Source: Spirogloea muscicola
Taxonomy: Eukaryota; Streptophyta; Zygnematophyceae; Spirogloeales; Spirogloeaceae
Length of the DNA: 33,260 bases
Assembly: GCA_009602725.1 (NCBI GenBank)
Contig: WELB01000024.1
Location: forward strand, 133,173 to 166,432
Direction: 5' to 3'
In this document: piece by piece, positions 3,054 through 31,585 of the stretch
How positions within the stretch are numbered: the first letter of the stretch is position 1
Layout: every line of letters starts with the position of its first letter
Translations under genes and position numbers: made by a program
Notes under the pieces: model-generated
What the model was told of the DNA's origin: nothing
Databases searched by the model: none
Seen by the model: only the letters and a program-made list of their open reading frames with translations

Positions 3054-4185
3054 CTACAGCGACTTGAGAGCGTCCTTGTATAAATATGCGACAGCAAGTG
3101 CCACGGTGGCCGCCACCACCGGCAGCGTTGCCTTGCACTGGCTGTTGAAGCGTTGCCGGGGGCTGACAGGGAGCCCGCCATCCTGCGCTTGCAGATCGAC
3201 AAGTGCTGCTCACGTTTAGGAGGACCCTTTGAGCCCTCATAAACCAAGTCAGCTTCAGCAGCATCTATAGTGCTGCATAACTGAATGGGCGCGAGGGGCT
3301 GGCAGTTGGAGCCGAAGCTTGCAGACCTTGTCGGGGATGCTGGGGTCGGCCCCCAAGCTGACAAGCAGGTCCCACAGGTTGCTCGTCCACTTGGCAGATG
3401 CGAGGTGCAATGCAGTCACGCCGGCCTGCGGCCCATCAGCGTGCAGCGGGTGACCGGCACCTCAGAGACACTGGCTTGCTGTGGCATTCCTGCAGGTGTT
3501 GTTGGGATATCCTGACAGCGCTAAGTGAGCACTGCAGGGCAGCTGGGTGAGGGCTGCAGGAAGTGCAAGGGACCTTGTCCTGGACGTTGGGGTCCAGGGC
3601 AGCGCCGCTGCGCCCGTCCGCAGCCGGTGCCTCCGCTAGCACCCGCACCACGTGGTCCCAACCATGGCCGACAGCGCCATGCAGCGGCCGTTGGCCGTCC
3701 TGCTCATAGTGCTTCCCGGCGCTCTATCAATTGGCAGATAGTGCGTTCCACCCAAACCTCGACCCCAACACCTACAACGTGGACCTCGTAGTCGAAGACT
3801 GGCAGCCATATCTCCTGACACAAGAGCAGCGCTGCCGGCGAGGGTGAAAGAGGAGGGCCGGGGCTGCTGACCTCGTTGGCGGCATTGACATCGGCACCGG
3901 CCTCGAGCAGGAGGCGCGCGGCCTGGCTGTGGCCAGTGATCGCCGCGTAGTGCAGCGGCGTGTTGCCGTCGTTGTTTCGGCAGCCGGGGTCGTTGAGCTT
4001 GTTCTGCAGTTGCCACCGCCGCCGCCACCCCGGGCCTCCGGCATGAGGCGTGCAAGCTCACGGCTGGCGGCGCCGTGCGCGGGCATCACCAGCAGCTCGG
4101 GCACCAACTTGTGCTGACGCGGGAGCGGCCCCGGAGTCGGTCTCCCGCCTTCGCCGCCGCACGAAGGGCAGCGGCTGCGGCGAAG

Positions 4186-4218
<33 letters not shown>

Positions 4219-4401
4219 GCGGACCTCGAGGAGGTAGCGGAGGCAGTCGAGGTGGCCGCCGCGCGCGGCCCAGTGCAGCGCCAGCGAGCCGGTGGCGGGC
4301 TCCACCTCGGCGGCATTGCCGCCCGCCTCCACAAGCCGCCGCAGCTGCGCCGCGTCGCCCGCGCTCGCCGCCCACAGCAGGTCGTCCTCGCGGCGCGCCA
4401 T
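3054..4401 (-). CDS. Tail-anchored ankyrin-repeat protein (5 exons, about 220 aa)
   Basis: Exons on the minus strand are 4401-4225, 4003-3872, 3699-3574, 3425-3327 and 3182-3054. All introns are phase 0 and all have GT donors and AG acceptors. The product begins MARREDDLLWAA and carries about four ankyrin units with the TPLH/ALH signature: LALHWAARGGH, NTPLHYAAITGH, QRPLHGAVGHGW and VTALHLASAKW, each followed by an L-L-x-x-G-A/D-x-N type turn such as LLLEAGADVNAANE. The last exon supplies a hydrophobic segment, LPVVAATVALAVAYLY, and stops eight codons later after KDALKSL, as in a tail-anchored membrane protein facing the cytosol. Ankyrin repeats bind partner proteins; the partner and the membrane cannot be deduced. 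The ATG at 4401 opens the first repeat with a normal helix. An in-frame upstream codon near 4575 would add a low-complexity leader reaching into the retroelement fragment and is less likely. Confidence 0.82.
4182..4216 (+). repeat. CGG trinucleotide microsatellite in intron 1 of the ankyrin gene
   Basis: Near-perfect run of CGG units with one T interruption, just inside the 5' end of intron 1 of the minus-strand ankyrin gene. If the intron were retained it would read as poly-Arg, and its 221-base length would shift the frame. Confidence 0.85.
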
Positions 4402-4525
4402 CGCCGCGCGTCCGCCGCCGCCGCCGCTGCCGCCGTCGTCGGCGTTCACGCCGCCCGTCCGCCAGCCATGGCCTTTGTCGCCACCGTGCTCTGTGCACAG
4501 CCTCGTCCTTCCAGTACCTCCCGAA

Positions 4526-4764
4526 GACGACGAGTTTCGGCCTGTTTGCAGCGTGCTCAGGCTAATGCCTTGCAACAGACAGCTGGGCGAGCTCTAGTTC
4601 TTCTTCTACTTGGTGGCAGAAGGGCTTCGTGTCTGACATCTGGTATCAAGGCAGCGATTAGCGACCTTCATGTTTTGACCCGTGGTTACTGAGCGAGTCA
4701 ATCTGCTGTAGATGTGCTTGCCCTTGTACTTGGCCACTTGGCCTTCGTTTGTTTCAAATACACG
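4526..4764 (+). mobile_element. 5'-truncated 3' end of an RLE-type non-LTR-like retroelement, copy 1
   Basis: About 239 bp that matches 10147-10386 closely; the first 36 bases of the two copies are identical. It encodes the extreme C-terminus of the element's polyprotein (RRRVSACLQRAQANAL ... SDLHVLTRGY, stop at about 4690) and a shared 3' untranslated stretch. The R-L-S-x-x-L-Q-R-x-N/Q-A helix is a familiar C-terminal signature of retroelement polyproteins with a restriction-like endonuclease domain. Everything 5' of it is missing, as expected for target-primed insertions that stop early. It lies only about 125 bp upstream of the ankyrin start codon, in the opposite orientation. Confidence 0.75.
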
Positions 4765-5800: not shown

Positions 5801-8174
5801 TCATGCACTTGATGCAAACGGCACCAATTGAGCAAAGTGCTTGGTAAGAATGCCTGCGACTTGCATCAATGTGAAAGGAGTGGCGTGCTTTGGACTGACT
5901 TGTAACTTCCGGATCACAGCAGGCGAAACACTGCCATCATATGCAGTAGGATGAGATCCACCCTTACTCCAGTCCACGCTTACTATGGATCGGTTGGCCA
6001 AGCCCCCAGAATCCTGTGTAAGAGACCAGGGCGGTTACCAGTAAGTTCCTCATGACATCTGACAGGAACAATCAAGCTGCAGATAACAGCCAAGAGACTC
6101 ATAGCTGCACAAAAGTGCTTAGTTCAGATAACATACACAACCCTCGTCTTGCAGGAAGCAGAAACATCAAAGCAATATCTACAATCTTACCTCCATGGTC
6201 AGAAGGGTTTGCACAAGGTGCTCCTCTGTTGGACACGAATGAAAGAGTTACAAACATCCTCGAGTATGACAAGCAGCAGATGGTGGACATTAAGGTGAGA
6301 TGGCATCCTACGTCCTCAGTGGACTTGCACTGACGAGCGAAGGTGGCAGCAACAAGGGCACGAGCAAAAGGTATCAGTTATCAGGAATACAACAAACACC
6401 AACAACATGTGCCTGACTGCAGCCTAAGCCTTAAGGATAGCTTGCCTTAGCACACTGTAAATTGCTCGCAACTTACCCATGATGCAGGTGAAATTTGCCA
6501 TGGATGCCACTGTTATCCACCATCTGGCCCTCTCTGTGCATAGCTGAAGGCATTTGCTGTAGAAATCCGTATCTGCATTCAGACTCAAGAAGGGAGGGCT
6601 TTTGAGAAGCCCTTTGTCAAAGAAATGAAGCACATCAGATGCAATACACCAAGTCGGTGCTTGCAATCATCACACTCTCAAGCTGACAACCACTGTGACT
6701 TAGTGGTCTGAAAGCATGTAGCTTAAGTGTGTTTGACTTCCCTAGCAGTGAAAAGCAACTGTGATTTGTGCCTCAGACGCACCAGAGACTACAATCTGAG
6801 CGTGCTTGCGCTGCATCTCATGCCATGTGGCTCCCTTCCGCCAGAATTCCCTCCCAATCTCTGGTAGCAATGTTGATTTGTATCTGCTCCCATGATGACC
6901 ATCTCCACTTACTGGTCAGTCGAACAGCACTGCTCCACAGCTGGCAAGCTCCTACATGGGGCAGCAGATCTTGCACCAGTGGAACATCAAGTCAGATCAG
7001 TCAGACAGGCCTCAGATGAGCAGTGCATGTTGGCATATTATCTTGCCTTTCATTGGTGGGATGTCCTCCGGTGAAGCTTTGCCTTGAAGTCAAGAGGTAG
7101 TCATACACGAAAGAGAAGTTCCTGATAGGGAGGTCGCTCTCGGACAGGAAAATAAGTCTCTCTACGGCTGGGTCCAGGAGTGCTGTGGCTAACAACCTCT
7201 TGTGTGCATCAACAGTGCGTATGGTACCCCACCCTGTGGTAAGGAGCACAACAATCATGGTCATAGGAGCTCAACTGTCACAGTCATACAAGGCTTGAGA
7301 AGGCAAGAGAAGGCAAGCTGGTCAGCATGATGTTCACAAAGCTGCCACCCATTAACAACATTCGCTTTAATAGTGCAGAGCACCTGGAGCTTGTCTATGT
7401 TCCTCGTTGAAAGCACTGGGGTACAAGATGTCCTACTCTGCCAGGGGCTAAGGCTTCAGAACCTTGAGGAGATATATCCACCCGACAGCAGCAGCATGTG
7501 TGCAGCCTGCTTAAGAAAACTGAGCCAGACTTGCGGTGACTCTTTGGTCCGGCGAATTCATCGGGCTCATAATCTCAGTATTCGCTTCGGCAAGGGCCCC
7601 GTGAGAGCACACCCGTGAGATTGCTGCGAATGTGGCGGCCGCGAAAGGCCCAGGAGTCGCGAGGGCCGTACTCGTACCCCGGCGGCGCGTGCACGTGCAG
7701 GACGTAGCGCGCGGCGTGGCCGGCCAGGAAGCGCTCCCACAGCGGCGCCAGCGGCATGGGGCCGCGCGTGAGGAAGAGGAAGGCGAGCTTGCGGTGGCGA
7801 GGCCGCCGGGCTGCCGGCGTGGCGGCGGCGCGGGCGAAGAGCGCCGCGTCCGCCGCGTCCAGCCCCGAAAGGCTGTCGGCACGCAGCCAGGGGGGGAGCT
7901 CCTCTGGCGCCTCCGCGGGCCGCGGCGGAGGTGGCGCGCCGCCCAGCCCCTCATGGCCTGAGGTGCTGGCGACGGCGTCGGCGGCAGAGTGCTGCTCCGG
8001 CACTGAGCTGCGCAGCAGCTGGTCGTCGGCCGCCGAATTGCCCGCCAGGCTCCGCGACGCCGCTAGGAGAGTGAAGAGGAGGGCCACGGCGGCCGCCAGC
8101 CGGCGCCGCCACCGCCCGTTTGGCCACGGCGACGGCGCCGGCGGCGGCGGCGCCGCCGCCGCGGCCGCCGGCAT
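5801..8174 (-). CDS. GT14 family glycosyltransferase (core-2/I-branching, DUF266-type), 6 exons
   Basis: Minus-strand exons: 8174-7613, 7233-7047, 6907-6783, 6572-6477, 6225-6191 and 6013-5801, all in phase, giving about 405 aa. The N-terminus is a type II Golgi signal anchor: basic WRRR followed by a hydrophobic stretch at residues 26-39, then a Pro/Ala stem. The catalytic part begins with KLAFLFLTRGPMPL at about residue 129 and continues with the family blocks LLATALLDPAVERLIFLSES, DLPIRNFSFVYDYLL, LLPEIGREFWRKGATW, EEHLVQTLL (usually DEHY) and VDWSKGGSHPTAY. Land-plant members are Golgi enzymes thought to add sugars to cell-wall or arabinogalactan glycans; the substrate here is unknown. 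The exon 2 donor appears to be GC (AAAG|GCAAGA), and the exon 2/3 junction is the least certain. The ATG at 8174 is chosen because it immediately precedes the signal anchor; an in-frame start at about 8312 is possible. The last exon reads straight through to TGA at 5801. Confidence 0.85.
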
Positions 8175-8949: not shown

Positions 8950-9249
8950 GCAAGTTAAGAGATGGCAGCTGACTTCTCTTTCCCCCTAGGAAGAGCATTG
9001 GTTGCAAGCGACCATTGCAGTGGAGAAACAATGCAGACAGAAGTGTGGATAGGTGCAAGGCTCGTTTGGTAGCAAAGGGGTCCTCACAACAAGAGGGAGT
9101 AGACTCCTTCTCTCCTGTTGCTAAGTCCTATTTGATTCGTGCGTCACTGTCTGATGAAGCCTTCAAGGAGTAGAAGCTGCACCAAATGAATGTAGGACAT
9201 GTTCCTCAATGGCGAGCTCGATGCAGAGAAGTACATGGAACAGCATTAG
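8950..9249 (+). mobile_element. Decayed Ty1/copia reverse-transcriptase fragment
   Basis: From 8988 one frame reads the start of a copia-type reverse transcriptase: RKSIGCK, then DRCKARLVAKGSSQQEGVD, FSPVAK and LHQMNV, corresponding to the canonical K-W/RLVAKG/FSPVAK/LHQMDV blocks. It is broken by an in-frame TAG at 9171. After a frame change at about 9196 it continues FLNGELDAEKYMEQH and meets another TAG at 9247. A few bases before 8988, a WQLTSLS-like piece in another frame fits the usual region just upstream of the RT. No integrase or RNase H was found. It is a dead relic. Confidence 0.8.
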
Positions 9250-9679: not shown

Positions 9680-10386
9680 GAGTGTTGGCTTGCATAGGTC
9701 ACCCTTATCACAACCTCCTCCGAGATGCCCTGGCGGGTTTGATGCGCGACGCCGGGTACTGTGCGGTCGTGAAAGTGAGGAACATCATGCCTATCCCCAC
9801 GGATGCCCAGGTACGTCATCATCGCCGCACACTTGACATTGTGGGCGTGCAACCTGGTGGAGGACCACGGGCCTTGGTCGATGACGTTGTTATGGAGGCT
9901 TACAAAGGTCCAGCATCGACGCACATGGCTGGCCACGCAGTGGGCAGTGCAGAACAAGAAAGATGCAGCACTACTCCGATTATGCCCAATGTGATCAGCT
10001 CCTGCCAGCGGCAGTCGACATCTTTGGCTGTTTAGGTCCTCGTTTCCACATTCGCCTTCGAAATATTGCCACTCTAGGCTACGCACGTCATGCAGATGTG
10101 TTTCCGGCTGAGATGGGCTTGCCAGCTGCATATCTGTCGCTCTTGCGACGACGAGTTTCGGCCTGTTTGCAGCGTGCTCAGGCAACTGCTTTGCACCAGA
10201 AAGCTGGGCAAGCTCTAGTTGGTAGCAGAAGTGCTTCGCATCTGCCATTCAGTTGTCAGGCATCGAATAGCGACCTTTCTGTATTGACCCGTGGTTACTG
10301 AGCGGGTCAATCTGCTACAGGTTATGTACGGGATGTGCTTGCCTTTGTACTTGGCCATTTGGCCTTCATTTGTTCCCAAAAACACG
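9680..10386 (+). mobile_element. RLE-type retroelement 3' part, copy 2 (C-terminal nuclease domain and 3' UTR)
   Basis: From 9680 the sequence reads ...ACIGHPYHNLLRDALAGLM and IMPIPTDAQ, then a TLDIVGVQ/VDDVVMEAY region, then, after at least two frame changes, HYSDYAQCDQLLPAAVDIFG and finally RRRVSACLQRAQATALHQ and the stop at about 10301. This order (C-x-H-x-x-L-R-D, aspartate strand LD-V-V, a lysine/tyrosine helix, F-x-P-x-x-x-E/D-x-x-G, R-L-S-x-x-L-Q-R) is what I recall of PD-(D/E)XK-like endonuclease tails of retroelement polyproteins. The reverse transcriptase is absent, cut off at 9679 by the LTR-like segment. Frameshifts make it inactive. The 3' end is about 280 bp upstream of the HEXIM-like ATG. 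Confidence 0.72.
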
Positions 10387-10664
10387 TATATCCTTTTCCT
10401 TCCATGGCACCGCGTGCCCTCTCTCTTACAGCCATCGCCTTACTTCGACAGAGCCACTGTCTTTTGCCACGGCGGCGTTGGCCATAGAGAGAGCGCCATT
10501 CTTCTGCCATAGGGAGCTTCCAAGCCGCCCCGGTGACACGTCTCCCTCACCCCGGTTCAAACCCTACCCTCCTCCGGACCTTGGCGGACGTACCATCGCC
10601 GCGCGCACGCCGCGCCGGGCCTCCCGGCTCCCGCGCCGCCGGCGGCAAGTGCGGCCCCCGTGGC
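10387..10664 (+). promoter_or_regulatory. 5' flank of the HEXIM-like gene
   Basis: About 280 bp between the retroelement 3' end and the proposed start codon, rising sharply in GC towards the gene, as at other gene starts in this window. No defined promoter motif was recognised. Confidence 0.3.
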
Positions 10665-11700
10665 ATGCGGCAGCGCCTCGCCCAGGCCGCGCAGTGGCGC
10701 GAGAGCTTGGCGTCAGCGCTCGCCACGCGGCGACCTGTGTGCGGCCCCATGGCCNCCGCTGGCTCAGCTGCATGGTTATGGGAGACGCAGCAGGAAGCGA
10801 AAGGCGAAGGACGGTGGGGCTCCGCGGCTCGCCGTGAAGAAAGCAAAGGCGGCGTCGTCACTGCCACCGCTGCCGCCGCCGCCGCCGCCGCCGGGGCAGG
10901 GCTACTGGCCGACGCGTGTTCAGGACTCCCGGAGGCGCAATCGACATCGGGCGCGCAAATTCTTCGGCCGGCACGCCAAGCGGCTGGCGGCTGCCCCGGC
11001 GGCACCGTTCAACACTAGCCAGTTCCTTATGCGGTCCAGCCGCATGGGTATCCTCGCGCCCGTGGAGTCGCCGGCCACGCCAGCGTCGGTCATGCTCGCC
11101 GGTGCTGCTACACCATCCCTGTGGCCTGATGTCTCTGCTGCCACTGGGGGCGGTAAGCAGCTGGTGGATGAGGCTCGGGAGCTCGGTGTCGACGCCTATG
11201 GCTCCATGAACGACTGCATCCGGCTGCGCGAGGCGACGGACGACTGCCGAGTCGAGGAGACGGAGAGCGTGCAGCGCCAGGGCTCACCGGATCACCTGTC
11301 AGGCGGCCAGGCCGGTGGTAGCAGCAGCAGCAGCACTAGTAGCAGTGGCGCCTGTGATAAGTCGGCTGGCCGCTCCTTAGTCGACTCTGCTGACCAGGTA
11401 GAGCGAAGGATTGACCATGAGCTGCTGCGTTTCGAGGTCTCTCTGGCGGGGATGGCGGAGCCGCTCGGCAGTCGAGGTGCCTCAGCTAGCCGGCGAGACC
11501 GACACCTGCGGGCGCGGATTGATGAGCAGGAACGGCAAGTGGCGCACCTGGAGGAGGAAAATCTGACGCTGCGAGAGAGGGTGTATGTGATGGAGCAGGA
11601 ACTGACTGGGCTGCGGCAACGGCTCTTGGATGCCCCCCCAGAGTCTGTCTGCGGGGAGGGCTCTGACAACAATGCCCAGGACCTTGAAGACGCACTGTAA
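10665..11700 (+). CDS. HEXIM-like protein (putative P-TEFb inhibitor)
   Basis: The main frame runs to TAA at 11700 without an intron. Reading order: basic tracts RRSRKRKAK and VKKAKA at about 10780-10850, a poly-Pro run (PPLPPPPPPP), GYW, an Arg-rich helix RRRNRHRARKFFGRHAKR, then APFNTSQFLM at 11002-11031. Animal HEXIM proteins carry APYNTTQFLM at the equivalent place, directly after an Arg-rich helix; that Tyr and Phe contact and inhibit CDK9. A Ser/acidic linker follows, then a strong coiled coil at 11500-11628 (RHLRARIDEQERQ, HLEEENLTLRERV, VMEQELTGLRQRLL), like the HEXIM cyclin-T-binding dimer region, and an acidic tail. A single N at 10755 lies where the frame of the best start (ATG 10665, MRQRLAQAAQWRESLASALA) must switch to the main frame, so the N-terminus is uncertain. 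By analogy it would bind a structured RNA and hold a CDK9-type kinase inactive in the nucleus. A convergent Pro/Arg-rich coiled-coil protein is the alternative. Confidence 0.65.
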
Positions 11701-18840: not shown

Positions 18841-19053
<213 letters not shown>

Positions 19054-28644: not shown

Positions 28645-29231
28645 GCGGTCCGGCGGGCTTCCAGCCGAGACGCGGCCGCCGAGGAATCGCGGCCTGATTC
28701 TGCCAAGTGGCCTCTGGTGAGGCGGGCCGGGCTGGCCGCGACGTCAAAAGAGAGAAGGCGCGCGGTGCGCATGAAATTGAAAGGGAGGCCAACTCTAGCC
28801 TCACAAATGTCATTTTAACTGGGTAGTGAGCTGGCTAAGGGGGGACACTAATATCCCCGAATGAGCACATGCATATCTGACAAGCTATACTGAGGAGCCA
28901 AACCACCCCCACGGAAGCCATTAGCCTGGGCTAATGCACGACCGGCACGCTGGTGGATCGCGAGTGCCTGAGAGCGCTGCAGACTCAACGATAACCGCAT
29001 TCTAAAGCATGCAACTATGGCTTGCGGGACGCTAGAATGGCCTAAGCTACCTGCCCGACTACGTCGGCGGGCATTGACATGCAGTGCCAGGCGATGGAGG
29101 AGGGCAGACCACTTCGTTCTATAGCCGCCGTAGATGTCCATGGCGCATGGGACGAAGTGGTCGCCCCGGGGGTGGTCACTATAGTGCCTCTCCTTCTTCC
29201 TCTCCGCATGATGTGTCGCCCAACCTGGCAC

Positions 29232-29750
29232 AGTCGGTGTGGGTGCCTCTGGTTGGAAAAAGGAACGAGATGCGGCTGCTGATATTGGTCGAGCAGCTGT
29301 GAAAGCCAGCCAGAGACGTCGGAGAGACGGACGACGACGGCCAGAGCGGCCACGTAAAAGGCAAGCAAGCCCATGTTCCTGCGACGAAGGCACGCCAGGC
29401 CCGAGCACGACTGCAGGCCGCCTGCTGCTGCGTCCACCCCGCTCGGCACGCCGCGCACGCAGAGGCAGCACGGAGAGGCCGCCGGCCGAGGCCCGGATGC
29501 CGAACGGCGGGCGGCACCACCCCCCCCCACCAGCCGCAGCTCGCTCATGTTGCTGGTGCAGAGCATGGGCCAAGCGAGCTGCGGACACACCGACTTGCGG
29601 CTGCGCAAGACCCAGAGACACGCGCCGGCAGACCCATCTCGGCTGGAAAGCCCATCCTCGCACGTCGTGTACAGCCTAGCCTGGCGTTGCCTCCAGTGAG
29701 ATGCGGGGACCTAAGCAATCATGTGTCAGACTGCAGCTGATGGGCTGTGA
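29232..29750. other. GC-rich insertion inside retroelement copy 3
   Basis: About 500 bp absent from copy 2. It is GC-rich with a C-run at 29520-29530. A minus-strand frame contains a hydrophobic piece (LLAFYVAALAVVV) but no recognisable family, and no terminal repeats were seen. It could be an inserted fragment of a host first exon or an unknown non-autonomous element. Confidence 0.4.
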
Positions 29751-30377: not shown

Positions 30378-31585
30378 ATGCATGCATGCACCATCAGCGG
30401 CAACGCCGCCGCCAACGCCGCCACCGCCGCCGCCGCCGCTGCGCGTGCCGCCCGCTGGCTCCGCCATCTCTCGCGGCGCTCCGCGGCCGCGCTGGCGTCG
30501 GACCCATACCACGGCGGCCTTGCTTTCCGCAAGCAAGCACGTGGAGGCCCTCCAACGTGGGCCGCGAGAGTGGCTTCCGACGTCAGGTGCCCTCCGACGA
30601 GGCGACGCTTCGCACCATCTGTGGTCGCGCCGCTGACCGTCTAGTCATTTGCATGCGCCAGGCGCCTTGGCAAAGCGGGCGCCTGTCAATCGCGCTTCGA
30701 GCTGCCTATGTCTGAACTGAACAGCATGCTTACTCTGGAGGAGCAGCAGTACGCTCGAGCAACTCAGACGTTAACTATGCGTACTGTGCCTGCCTCTGCG
30801 CACACCCTCACGGCAGCTACGCACCAGCAGCTTGGCAGGAGCCGGAGATAGCCGCGGCGCACGCCACGGTTATGGCGCAGCTGGTCAGAGACACAGGCGA
30901 GCAAGATGCCGACCAGAGAGCTGATGCAGCGCAGTCGAAGTACGAGCAAGTAATCACGCACGCCGAGCAGGCCATAGAGCACACCGCTGATTCGATTGAG
31001 CAATATTGGTCAAGAGTGCGTGAGGCTTCGTACGATGCCAAACGGGAGGCTGTTGAGGAGTATGAGCGAGCAGCCGAAGCAGCCCATGCGCGGTACGAGG
31101 AAGCCAAGAGGCATGTGGAAGAAGCTAAGCACTACACTGGAGAGGCGGCAGGCGAGGCAAGGCGGCGGGCTGAAGAGGCAACTGAACGAGTCAGGCTCGA
31201 GGCCGCTGAGAAGGCTGAACGAGCCCGGCAACTCACGGCGGAGCTAGAGGGCAAGCTAGCCCACATTCTAGAGAAGGTGAGACCGATTGCAGGACCGGTG
31301 CACCTCAGTCCTACCAACTGCGACCTGAACCTGATAACGCGCAACGTGCCCAGCAGAATGCAAACAAATGACATCTGATCGGGCGCATCCGAGATGATCA
31401 GCTCGTCGGTCGTCGACTCCCTGCGCCTGACCTTAGCAGTCCTGCTGCAGGTCAGTGACTACATGAGGGACATCATGAAAGCGAGAAAGGGTGAGAGCCT
31501 CCGGCAAGAGTGACTGCGCAATCAATTTCCAGAGATCGCCCCTGCCAAGCAACCTCCTGTACCCTGGGGGCGACAAGATTGGTGA
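30378..31585 (+). CDS. LEA-like amphipathic helix protein, partly resolved
   Basis: The clear part is the exon ending at 31276, in the frame containing ATG 30872. It is about 135 residues, nearly all helical and rich in Ala, Glu, Arg and Lys, with repeating 11-residue-like motifs (AEQAIEHTADSIEQYW, EEAKRHVEEAKHY, AGEARRRAEEATERV, KLAHILEK), as in group 3 LEA or apolipoprotein-like helices that coat membranes or protect proteins on drying. The donor is GAGAAG|GTGAGA. One phase-consistent ending is 31451-31490 plus 31533-31585 (ends GRQDW), although the second intron would be only 42 bases; another is one exon from 31652 to 31807 (VQASDIHDTLAPVL to WCGTRAI). Upstream, 30378-30530 encodes an Ala/Arg-rich leader (AARAARWLRHLSRRSAAA) typical of an organelle targeting peptide. 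Between it and 30872 the frame is broken or spliced; one frame is open from 30314 to 31378 apart from one TGA at 30713. Function is inferred from helix pattern only. Confidence 0.5.

Follow-up and report, generated by a model that had tools for sequence, protein, structure and literature searches.

A HEXIM-like gene of the streptophyte alga Spirogloea muscicola and its land-plant relatives as candidate plant counterparts of a P-TEFb inhibitor

HEXIM1 and HEXIM2 (Pfam PF15313) inhibit P-TEFb in metazoans within the 7SK snRNP. In HEXIM1, a basic region that binds RNA is followed by a linker, an acidic region and a coiled-coil. The linker carries the conserved PYNT motif (202-PYNTTQFLM-210), which binds Cdk9 and is unmasked when RNA is bound; the coiled-coil dimerises and binds cyclin T (passages of PMC12901311). 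According to passages of PMC11482795, HEXIM arose in the ancestor shared by animals and the unicellular lineages closest to them, patchy HEXIM-like sequences occur elsewhere in eukaryotes, and land plants have lost the core NELF subunits. The patchy sequences are listed in the supplement of that paper, which may hold plant entries; no plant or algal HEXIM was described in the literature searched, by titles and abstract openings.

The stretch of DNA analysed here, referred to as the window, comprises 33,260 nucleotides of contig WELB01000024.1 of the zygnematophycean alga Spirogloea muscicola, for which a genome triplication is described in passages of PMC10487979. An open frame of 387 codons from stop to stop occupies positions 10537–11700 of the forward strand. 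The original prediction had read from it basic tracts, an Arg-rich helix, the peptide APFNTSQFLM and a C-terminal coiled-coil, and all of these are present in the frame. The middle of the protein is AAAPAAPFNTSQFLMRSS, preceded by the Arg-rich stretch. The predicted span of 10665–11700 was correct at its end and was revised at its start by alignment with the homeologs. The frame lacks an ATG ahead of the motif because 86 bases are missing at the N at position 10755, where the gap is shown as a single letter. With these bases restored, an ATG at 10749 falls in the main frame, and the gene therefore most likely extends from 10749 to 11700 as one exon, this ATG rather than position 10665 being the most likely true start on the aligned sequences. 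The features of the gene are as follows:

10749–11700, forward strand: single-exon coding region of the HEXIM-like protein (open frame; start and gap by alignment with two homeologs)
10755, no strand: N in place of 86 bases absent from the window copy and present in both homeologs (DNA alignment with L002 and L003)
10783–10848, forward strand: tracts of basic residues, RRSRKRKAK and KKAK, that may bind RNA (sequence; net charge +14 over the 60 residues before the motif)
10918–10986, forward strand: Arg-rich stretch with a predicted helix at about 10918–10965 (AlphaFold model of homeolog P0007; largely within the Pfam HEXIM match, 132–166)
11002–11031, forward strand: APFNTSQFLM, putative counterpart of the HEXIM1 PYNT motif (Pfam match, profile comparison, conservation)
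11185–11229, forward strand: conserved block of the green lineage, GVDAYGSMNDCIRLR (alignment of 32 green proteins; none seen in the animal alignment)
11389–11451, forward strand: first predicted C-terminal helix, around VERRIDHELLRFEV (AlphaFold helix 298–318 of P0007)
about 11485–11631, forward strand: long predicted C-terminal coiled-coil helix, candidate dimerisation and cyclin-binding part (AlphaFold helix 330–378 of P0007, pLDDT 86–97; coiled-coil Pfam matches)

The order of these parts, from the basic region through the motif to the coiled-coil at the end, is kept in the green proteins. As in HEXIM1 and HEXIM2, a basic region and a predicted helix precede the motif, a predicted coiled-coil lies at the C-terminal end, and an acidic stretch lies between the two, most clearly in four land plants. 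Net charge before the motif was positive in all seven green proteins measured (+8 to +17), and the sequence after the motif was acidic in six of the seven (−5 to −13), the exception being P0009, a member of a second algal trio described below. Between 60 and 120 residues after the motif, the four land plants had a net charge of −7 to −13, the window protein one of −5 and P0009 one of 0. The green proteins differ from the animal ones in a basic region that could not be aligned, a coil that could not be aligned with confidence, and the additional GVxxYGSM block. The AlphaFold model of P0007 has a mean pLDDT of only 58, with a confident last helix. In the same model a helix at residues 141–156 (pLDDT about 62–74) ends 12 residues before the motif (169–178). 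By sequence alone the Arg-rich stretch covers 10930–10986, and the Arg-rich helix may, by its position, be the counterpart of the HEXIM linker helix. A Foldseek search of this model, at its mean pLDDT of 58, against the PDB gave no match at E 10 or below, and a PDB sequence search with the window protein returned five sequences at E ≤10, none of them named HEXIM (best E 0.23). No counterpart of the Tyr271 region of HEXIM1 was seen in the green proteins.

Within the alga genome the gene is present as three close copies, on C24 (the window), C49 (88%) and C39 (85%). Ka/Ks for the three homeolog pairs was 0.131, 0.174 and 0.187 over 308 codons, so the HEXIM-like protein is under purifying selection; on the same values a noncoding frame was rejected. 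Upstream of the conserved start, Ka/Ks rose to 0.40, 0.47 and 1.01 over 53–54 codons, the two lower values coming from the pairs with the window copy, which are distorted by the frame break at the gap. A fourth, more distant copy (L004, at 704 kb of C39, 51%) keeps the GVNAYGSM block and the coil, and no PxNT-like motif was found within the copy or in about 9 kb to either side; on its sequence, L004 is probably a truncated copy. A second algal trio (L008, L009 and L010, on C14, C38 and C16) carries APRNTTQFIM and a GV(N/D)AFGSM block, and gives the top HEXIM scores in the genome, yet its coil is irregular. Selection on it appears weaker (Ka/Ks 0.45–0.59 over 346 aligned codons that possibly include untranslated sequence). 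Compared with the window trio, it has a less regular coil and, in P0009, no acidic stretch, and it is possibly a diverging paralog that retained the kinase peptide. GRAS genes are also present, many of them in threes by eye. Together with the two HEXIM-like trios and three cyclin T places, such threefold gene sets would fit a triplicated streptophyte alga near the land plants.

A protein database search with the window protein returned four homologs at E 0.01 or better, all from land plants (E 1.3e-21 to 1.3e-7): a lycophyte (P0002), Ginkgo (P0003, assigned by its gene prefix), a fern (P0004) and a grass (P0005). The lycophyte and fern homologs share 36–40% identity over 55–62% of the window protein, and when the lycophyte protein was searched back against the alga genome, the three copies of the window gene came first. 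A seven-sequence profile matched 867 UniRef proteins at E 1 or better, and the family figures given here rest on the best 120 of these. Among the 120 matches listed, all with an organism name were from land plants, the others being unnamed transcripts, and the commonest informative name was ‘PRLI-interacting factor A’. Single odd names among the matches listed (P0078 ‘Protein HEXIM2’, P0042 ‘Centrosomal protein’, P0066 ‘midasin-like’ and P0119 ‘callose synthase 3-like’) look like automatic naming. Membership is evident from similarity over the motif, the GVxxYGSM block and the LEEENLTL(K/R)ER coil, with E values of 1.3e-21 to 1.3e-7 and the reciprocal match. Judged by this similarity, the window gene belongs to a large land-plant family often named ‘PRLI-interacting factor A’, with which it shares the motif, the block and the coiled-coil, and from which it differs in reading FNTSQF where land plants read RNTTSF. 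The original prediction had spoken of green algae; the gene does lie in an alga, and the family extends across land plants. No functional study of the ‘PRLI-interacting factor A’ family was found in the literature searched. By title, the phrase occurs in a wheat association study and a faba bean QTL study. Two sources were rejected as guides to function: a maize effector target, which passages of PMC4871590 name factor G, and the faba bean passages of PMC8253854, which was found by the factor A phrase and which, in those passages, give no factor letter and no test of function.

Conservation of the motif in relatives had been put forward as a check of the prediction, and it held for the core of the motif, with changes at two positions. 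Among the 120 land-plant homologs listed, the best of the 867 matches, 117 fit APxNT[ST]xF and the other three carry Y for F, so that APxNT[ST]x[F/Y] is found in all 120, in the form APRNT(T/S)S(F/Y). Across 32 aligned green proteins, the equivalents of A201, P202, N204, T205 and F208 are invariant, giving the APxNT(T/S)xF core that is shared with HEXIM1 and HEXIM2. The positions that differ from the animal proteins are Y203 and Q207, both invariant in 21 animal HEXIMs. The equivalent of Y203 is F in the window trio and R in the other green proteins, and that of Q207 is Q in the two algal trios; land plants have S there and so read R and S at the two positions. The algal forms PFNTSQFLM and PRNTTQFIM are in this way intermediate between the animal and land-plant motifs. 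Few parts of the green family are invariant, and the motif is one of them; a G[VL][ND]x[YF]G[ST]M block was present in all 126 plant and algal proteins tested.

HEXIM headed the Pfam matches of the window protein (18 bits, E 0.0036) and of five other motif-bearing algal proteins (17.7–20.4 bits, E 0.0006–0.0044). The profile check proposed with the original prediction thus returned HEXIM as the top match in all six motif-bearing algal proteins, all of them below the curated cut-off of 29 bits, a score attained by no protein among the ten that were scanned one by one (best 20.4). When the 153 Mb genome was scanned in six frames with the same profile, only six places were listed, corresponding to the window trio and the second trio (18.3–21.1 bits). 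None exceeded the cut-off, and no place is significant alone because the genome-wide E value of each is 0.03–0.23. In land plants the profile ranked third for P0002 (E 0.0025), fifth for P0003 (E 0.29) and third for P0004 (E 1.3), and did not match P0005. Among the 32 aligned members, the matches at E 10 or better were to the coiled-coil families Csm1_N in 26 and Cnn_1N in 17, and to HEXIM in 16. On its sequence, the window gene would not be filed as a member of the HEXIM family.

Whole alignments were also compared. The animal set consisted of 21 HEXIMs picked from 50 matches to a fragment of human HEXIM. When these were compared with the 32 green proteins by hhalign, the two directions gave P values of 5.7e-7 and 1.1e-7 and scores of 57.4 and 62.1, and 100 column shuffles of the green alignment in the first direction reached at most 27.7 against the real 57.4. 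An animal core profile scored the six algal proteins at 17.4–20.4 bits, with at most 2.9 for 120 full shuffles. The best 120 land-plant proteins averaged 8.4 bits (−3.6 to 15.9) and 2400 shuffles of land-plant proteins averaged −3.2 (at most 8.9); the best shuffles thus score within the range of individual land-plant proteins. With the full-length animal profile, the algal proteins averaged 18.0, and the land plants −12.1 against −4.4 for their own shuffles. In the opposite direction, a green core profile gave a mean of 16.6 bits (−0.6 to 26.1) on the 50 animal HEXIMs, where the highest score was 6.7 among 2000 full shuffles and 6.2 among 1960 motif shuffles. The full-length green profile averaged 9.7 (−9.8 to 21.5) on the animal HEXIMs, with shuffles at most 7.0.

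These values bear on whether the resemblance is an accident, in a family of ordinary coiled-coil proteins of the nucleus or cytoskeleton whose function is unrelated. Coiled-coil profiles do account for many of the family's Pfam matches, and one member carries the name ‘Centrosomal protein’ (P0042). That explanation is nevertheless improbable: the profile P is 1e-7 to 6e-7, shuffling the algal proteins or the alignment gave far lower scores, and the motif is one of the few stretches that do not vary across the family.

The similarity detected by hhalign spans 17–18 columns, which are the motif only. With the motif columns removed, the profile comparison gave P 0.0039; the C-terminal halves compared at P 0.0017 (probability 15%) and the N-terminal halves at P 0.67. 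Common descent with HEXIM is not proven by these results, and convergence on a kinase-binding peptide is possible. A plant-specific coiled-coil scaffold, the ‘PRLI-interacting factor A’ protein, would in that case have evolved a HEXIM-like short linear peptide for the same kinase cleft or another, with neither common descent nor control by RNA. The green proteins have a conserved block of their own, GVxxYGSM, and the placement of HEXIM origin near the animal stem in passages of PMC11482795 also agrees with such a history. It is the serious rival to the reading of the family as a plant counterpart of HEXIM, and on balance it seems somewhat doubtful. Convergence on a peptide sits poorly with the shared order of basic region, helix, motif, acidic stretch and coil, and with algal motifs that are intermediate between the animal and land-plant forms. 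It also sits poorly with an excess of similarity in the flank of the motif: when the residues before the motif were shuffled, only 7, 14, 16 and 10 of 1000 shuffles matched the real animal-core score in four algal proteins. The same treatment of four land plants gave 83, 32, 5 and 63 of 1000, and from green to animal the residues before the motif contributed little (16.6 bits, 15.1 when shuffled). Taken together, the profiles and shuffles make the motif match firm. They make the flank match suggestive, chiefly in algae, and the coil adds little information.

Candidate kinase and cyclin T partners of a HEXIM counterpart are found in the genome. The cyclin T C-domain was detected at three places over the cut-off, and CDK9-like exons include a trio on C16, C101 and C175 with 64–66% identity to human CDK9 in one exon, which may represent CDKC. 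Bin3/MePCE was detected at two places and the La domain at four. The assignment as a HEXIM-like P-TEFb inhibitor is favoured by the motif, the order of parts, the top Pfam match and the cyclin T and CDK9-like genes in the genome, and weakened by scores below the cut-off and a likeness confined to 17–18 columns. Given the motif in all 120 land-plant homologs listed and the profile match, the idea of a brake on P-TEFb is plausible and much broader than one alga. The preferred reading takes the window gene as a plant counterpart of HEXIM, encoding an inhibitor of CDKC/cyclin T, with a probability of roughly 0.55.

Control by RNA is a separate matter. The original prediction implied an unrecognised 7SK-like RNA and a LARP7-type partner, for which the searches, both run without a positive control, returned no support. 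Rfam gave no family over threshold on the window. For 7SK (RF00100) there was no match at E ≤10 in the whole genome, in a search that scored 19 of 4772 first-look candidates and in which only three prokaryote controls matched, below the cut-off. The RRM_3 (LARP7-type) profile had no match in the genome and none in any control genome either. With no 7SK found and LARP7 undecided, RNA control is therefore unsupported. The failure to match 7SK, in a search without a positive control, is what would be expected if the protein were a HEXIM-type inhibitor free of RNA, acting directly on CDKC/cyclin T and freed through phosphorylation or by partners, for instance a complex that contains PRL1. The acidic region is weak in the window protein and lacking in P0009, leaving little to mask the motif, and the database name ‘PRLI-interacting factor A’ points to an interaction with PRL1, presumably the origin of the name. 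The basic stretches before the motif in all seven green proteins (+8 to +17), well suited to binding RNA, argue the other way. This RNA-free form is a variant of the preferred reading with which its odds overlap, and taken by itself it is unlikely.

If the preferred reading is correct, the green protein would be largely disordered and nuclear and would dimerise via its C-terminal coiled-coil, which would also dock on cyclin T. The AP(F/R)NT(S/T)(Q/S)F peptide would then enter the catalytic cleft of the P-TEFb kinase of plants (CDK9/CDKC) and hold it inactive until release. As in HEXIM1, the peptide may be masked by the basic region that precedes it and the acidic stretch that follows, until something, perhaps RNA, binds the basic region and unmasks the peptide; control by a 7SK-like RNA is purely conjectural at this point. 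In its most extended form, the HEXIM brake on P-TEFb would predate the plant–animal split, and the ‘PRLI-interacting factor A’ family would be the plant HEXIM, inhibiting CDKC/cyclin T through AP(R/F)NT under the control of an unrecognised 7SK-like RNA capped by plant Bin3/MePCE. That full combination is doubtful. Were the counterpart real, plants too would have a form of elongation control that has been described chiefly in animals, as a direct brake on transcription elongation, and the origin of HEXIM would shift from the animal stem, where passages of PMC11482795 place it, back towards the eukaryote root. A land-plant-wide family with only an interaction-derived name would gain a testable function, and the question would arise which RNA, if any, controls it.

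Several other features were observed in the window around the gene. A decayed copia-type reverse transcriptase-like fragment, read by eye, lies at about 9000–9180 of the forward strand (RLVAKGSSQQEGVDSFSPVAK). A transposable-element origin of the HEXIM-like gene was rejected despite this fragment about 1.5 kb upstream, as the land-plant orthologs indicate a host gene. Three frames, at 3997–4692 (forward), 9885–10301 (forward) and 28848–29675 (reverse), end alike in LQR(A/S)QAxAxxQxAG(R/Q)AL ... SD(L/M)xVL(T/I)RGY followed by a stop. The second of this repeat family lies just upstream of the HEXIM-like gene, and the two frames that were scanned were without a Pfam match. At 18841–19053, A runs of 123 and 64 bases flank an assembly gap of 26 N, and the reverse-strand frame beside it has, by eye, a cyclophilin-like start, with no Pfam match at E 0.01. 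A LEA-like Ala/Glu/Arg-rich frame at 30716–31378 of the forward strand (EEAKRHVEEAKHYTGEAAGEARRRAEEATERV) likewise had no Pfam match at E 0.01. On the reverse strand, the frame at 3772–4593 contains ankyrin repeats (Ank_4, E 2.7e-7) and the last part of that at 7575–8363 matches the beginning of a Core-2/I-branching glycosyltransferase domain (PF02485, E 1.2e-7).
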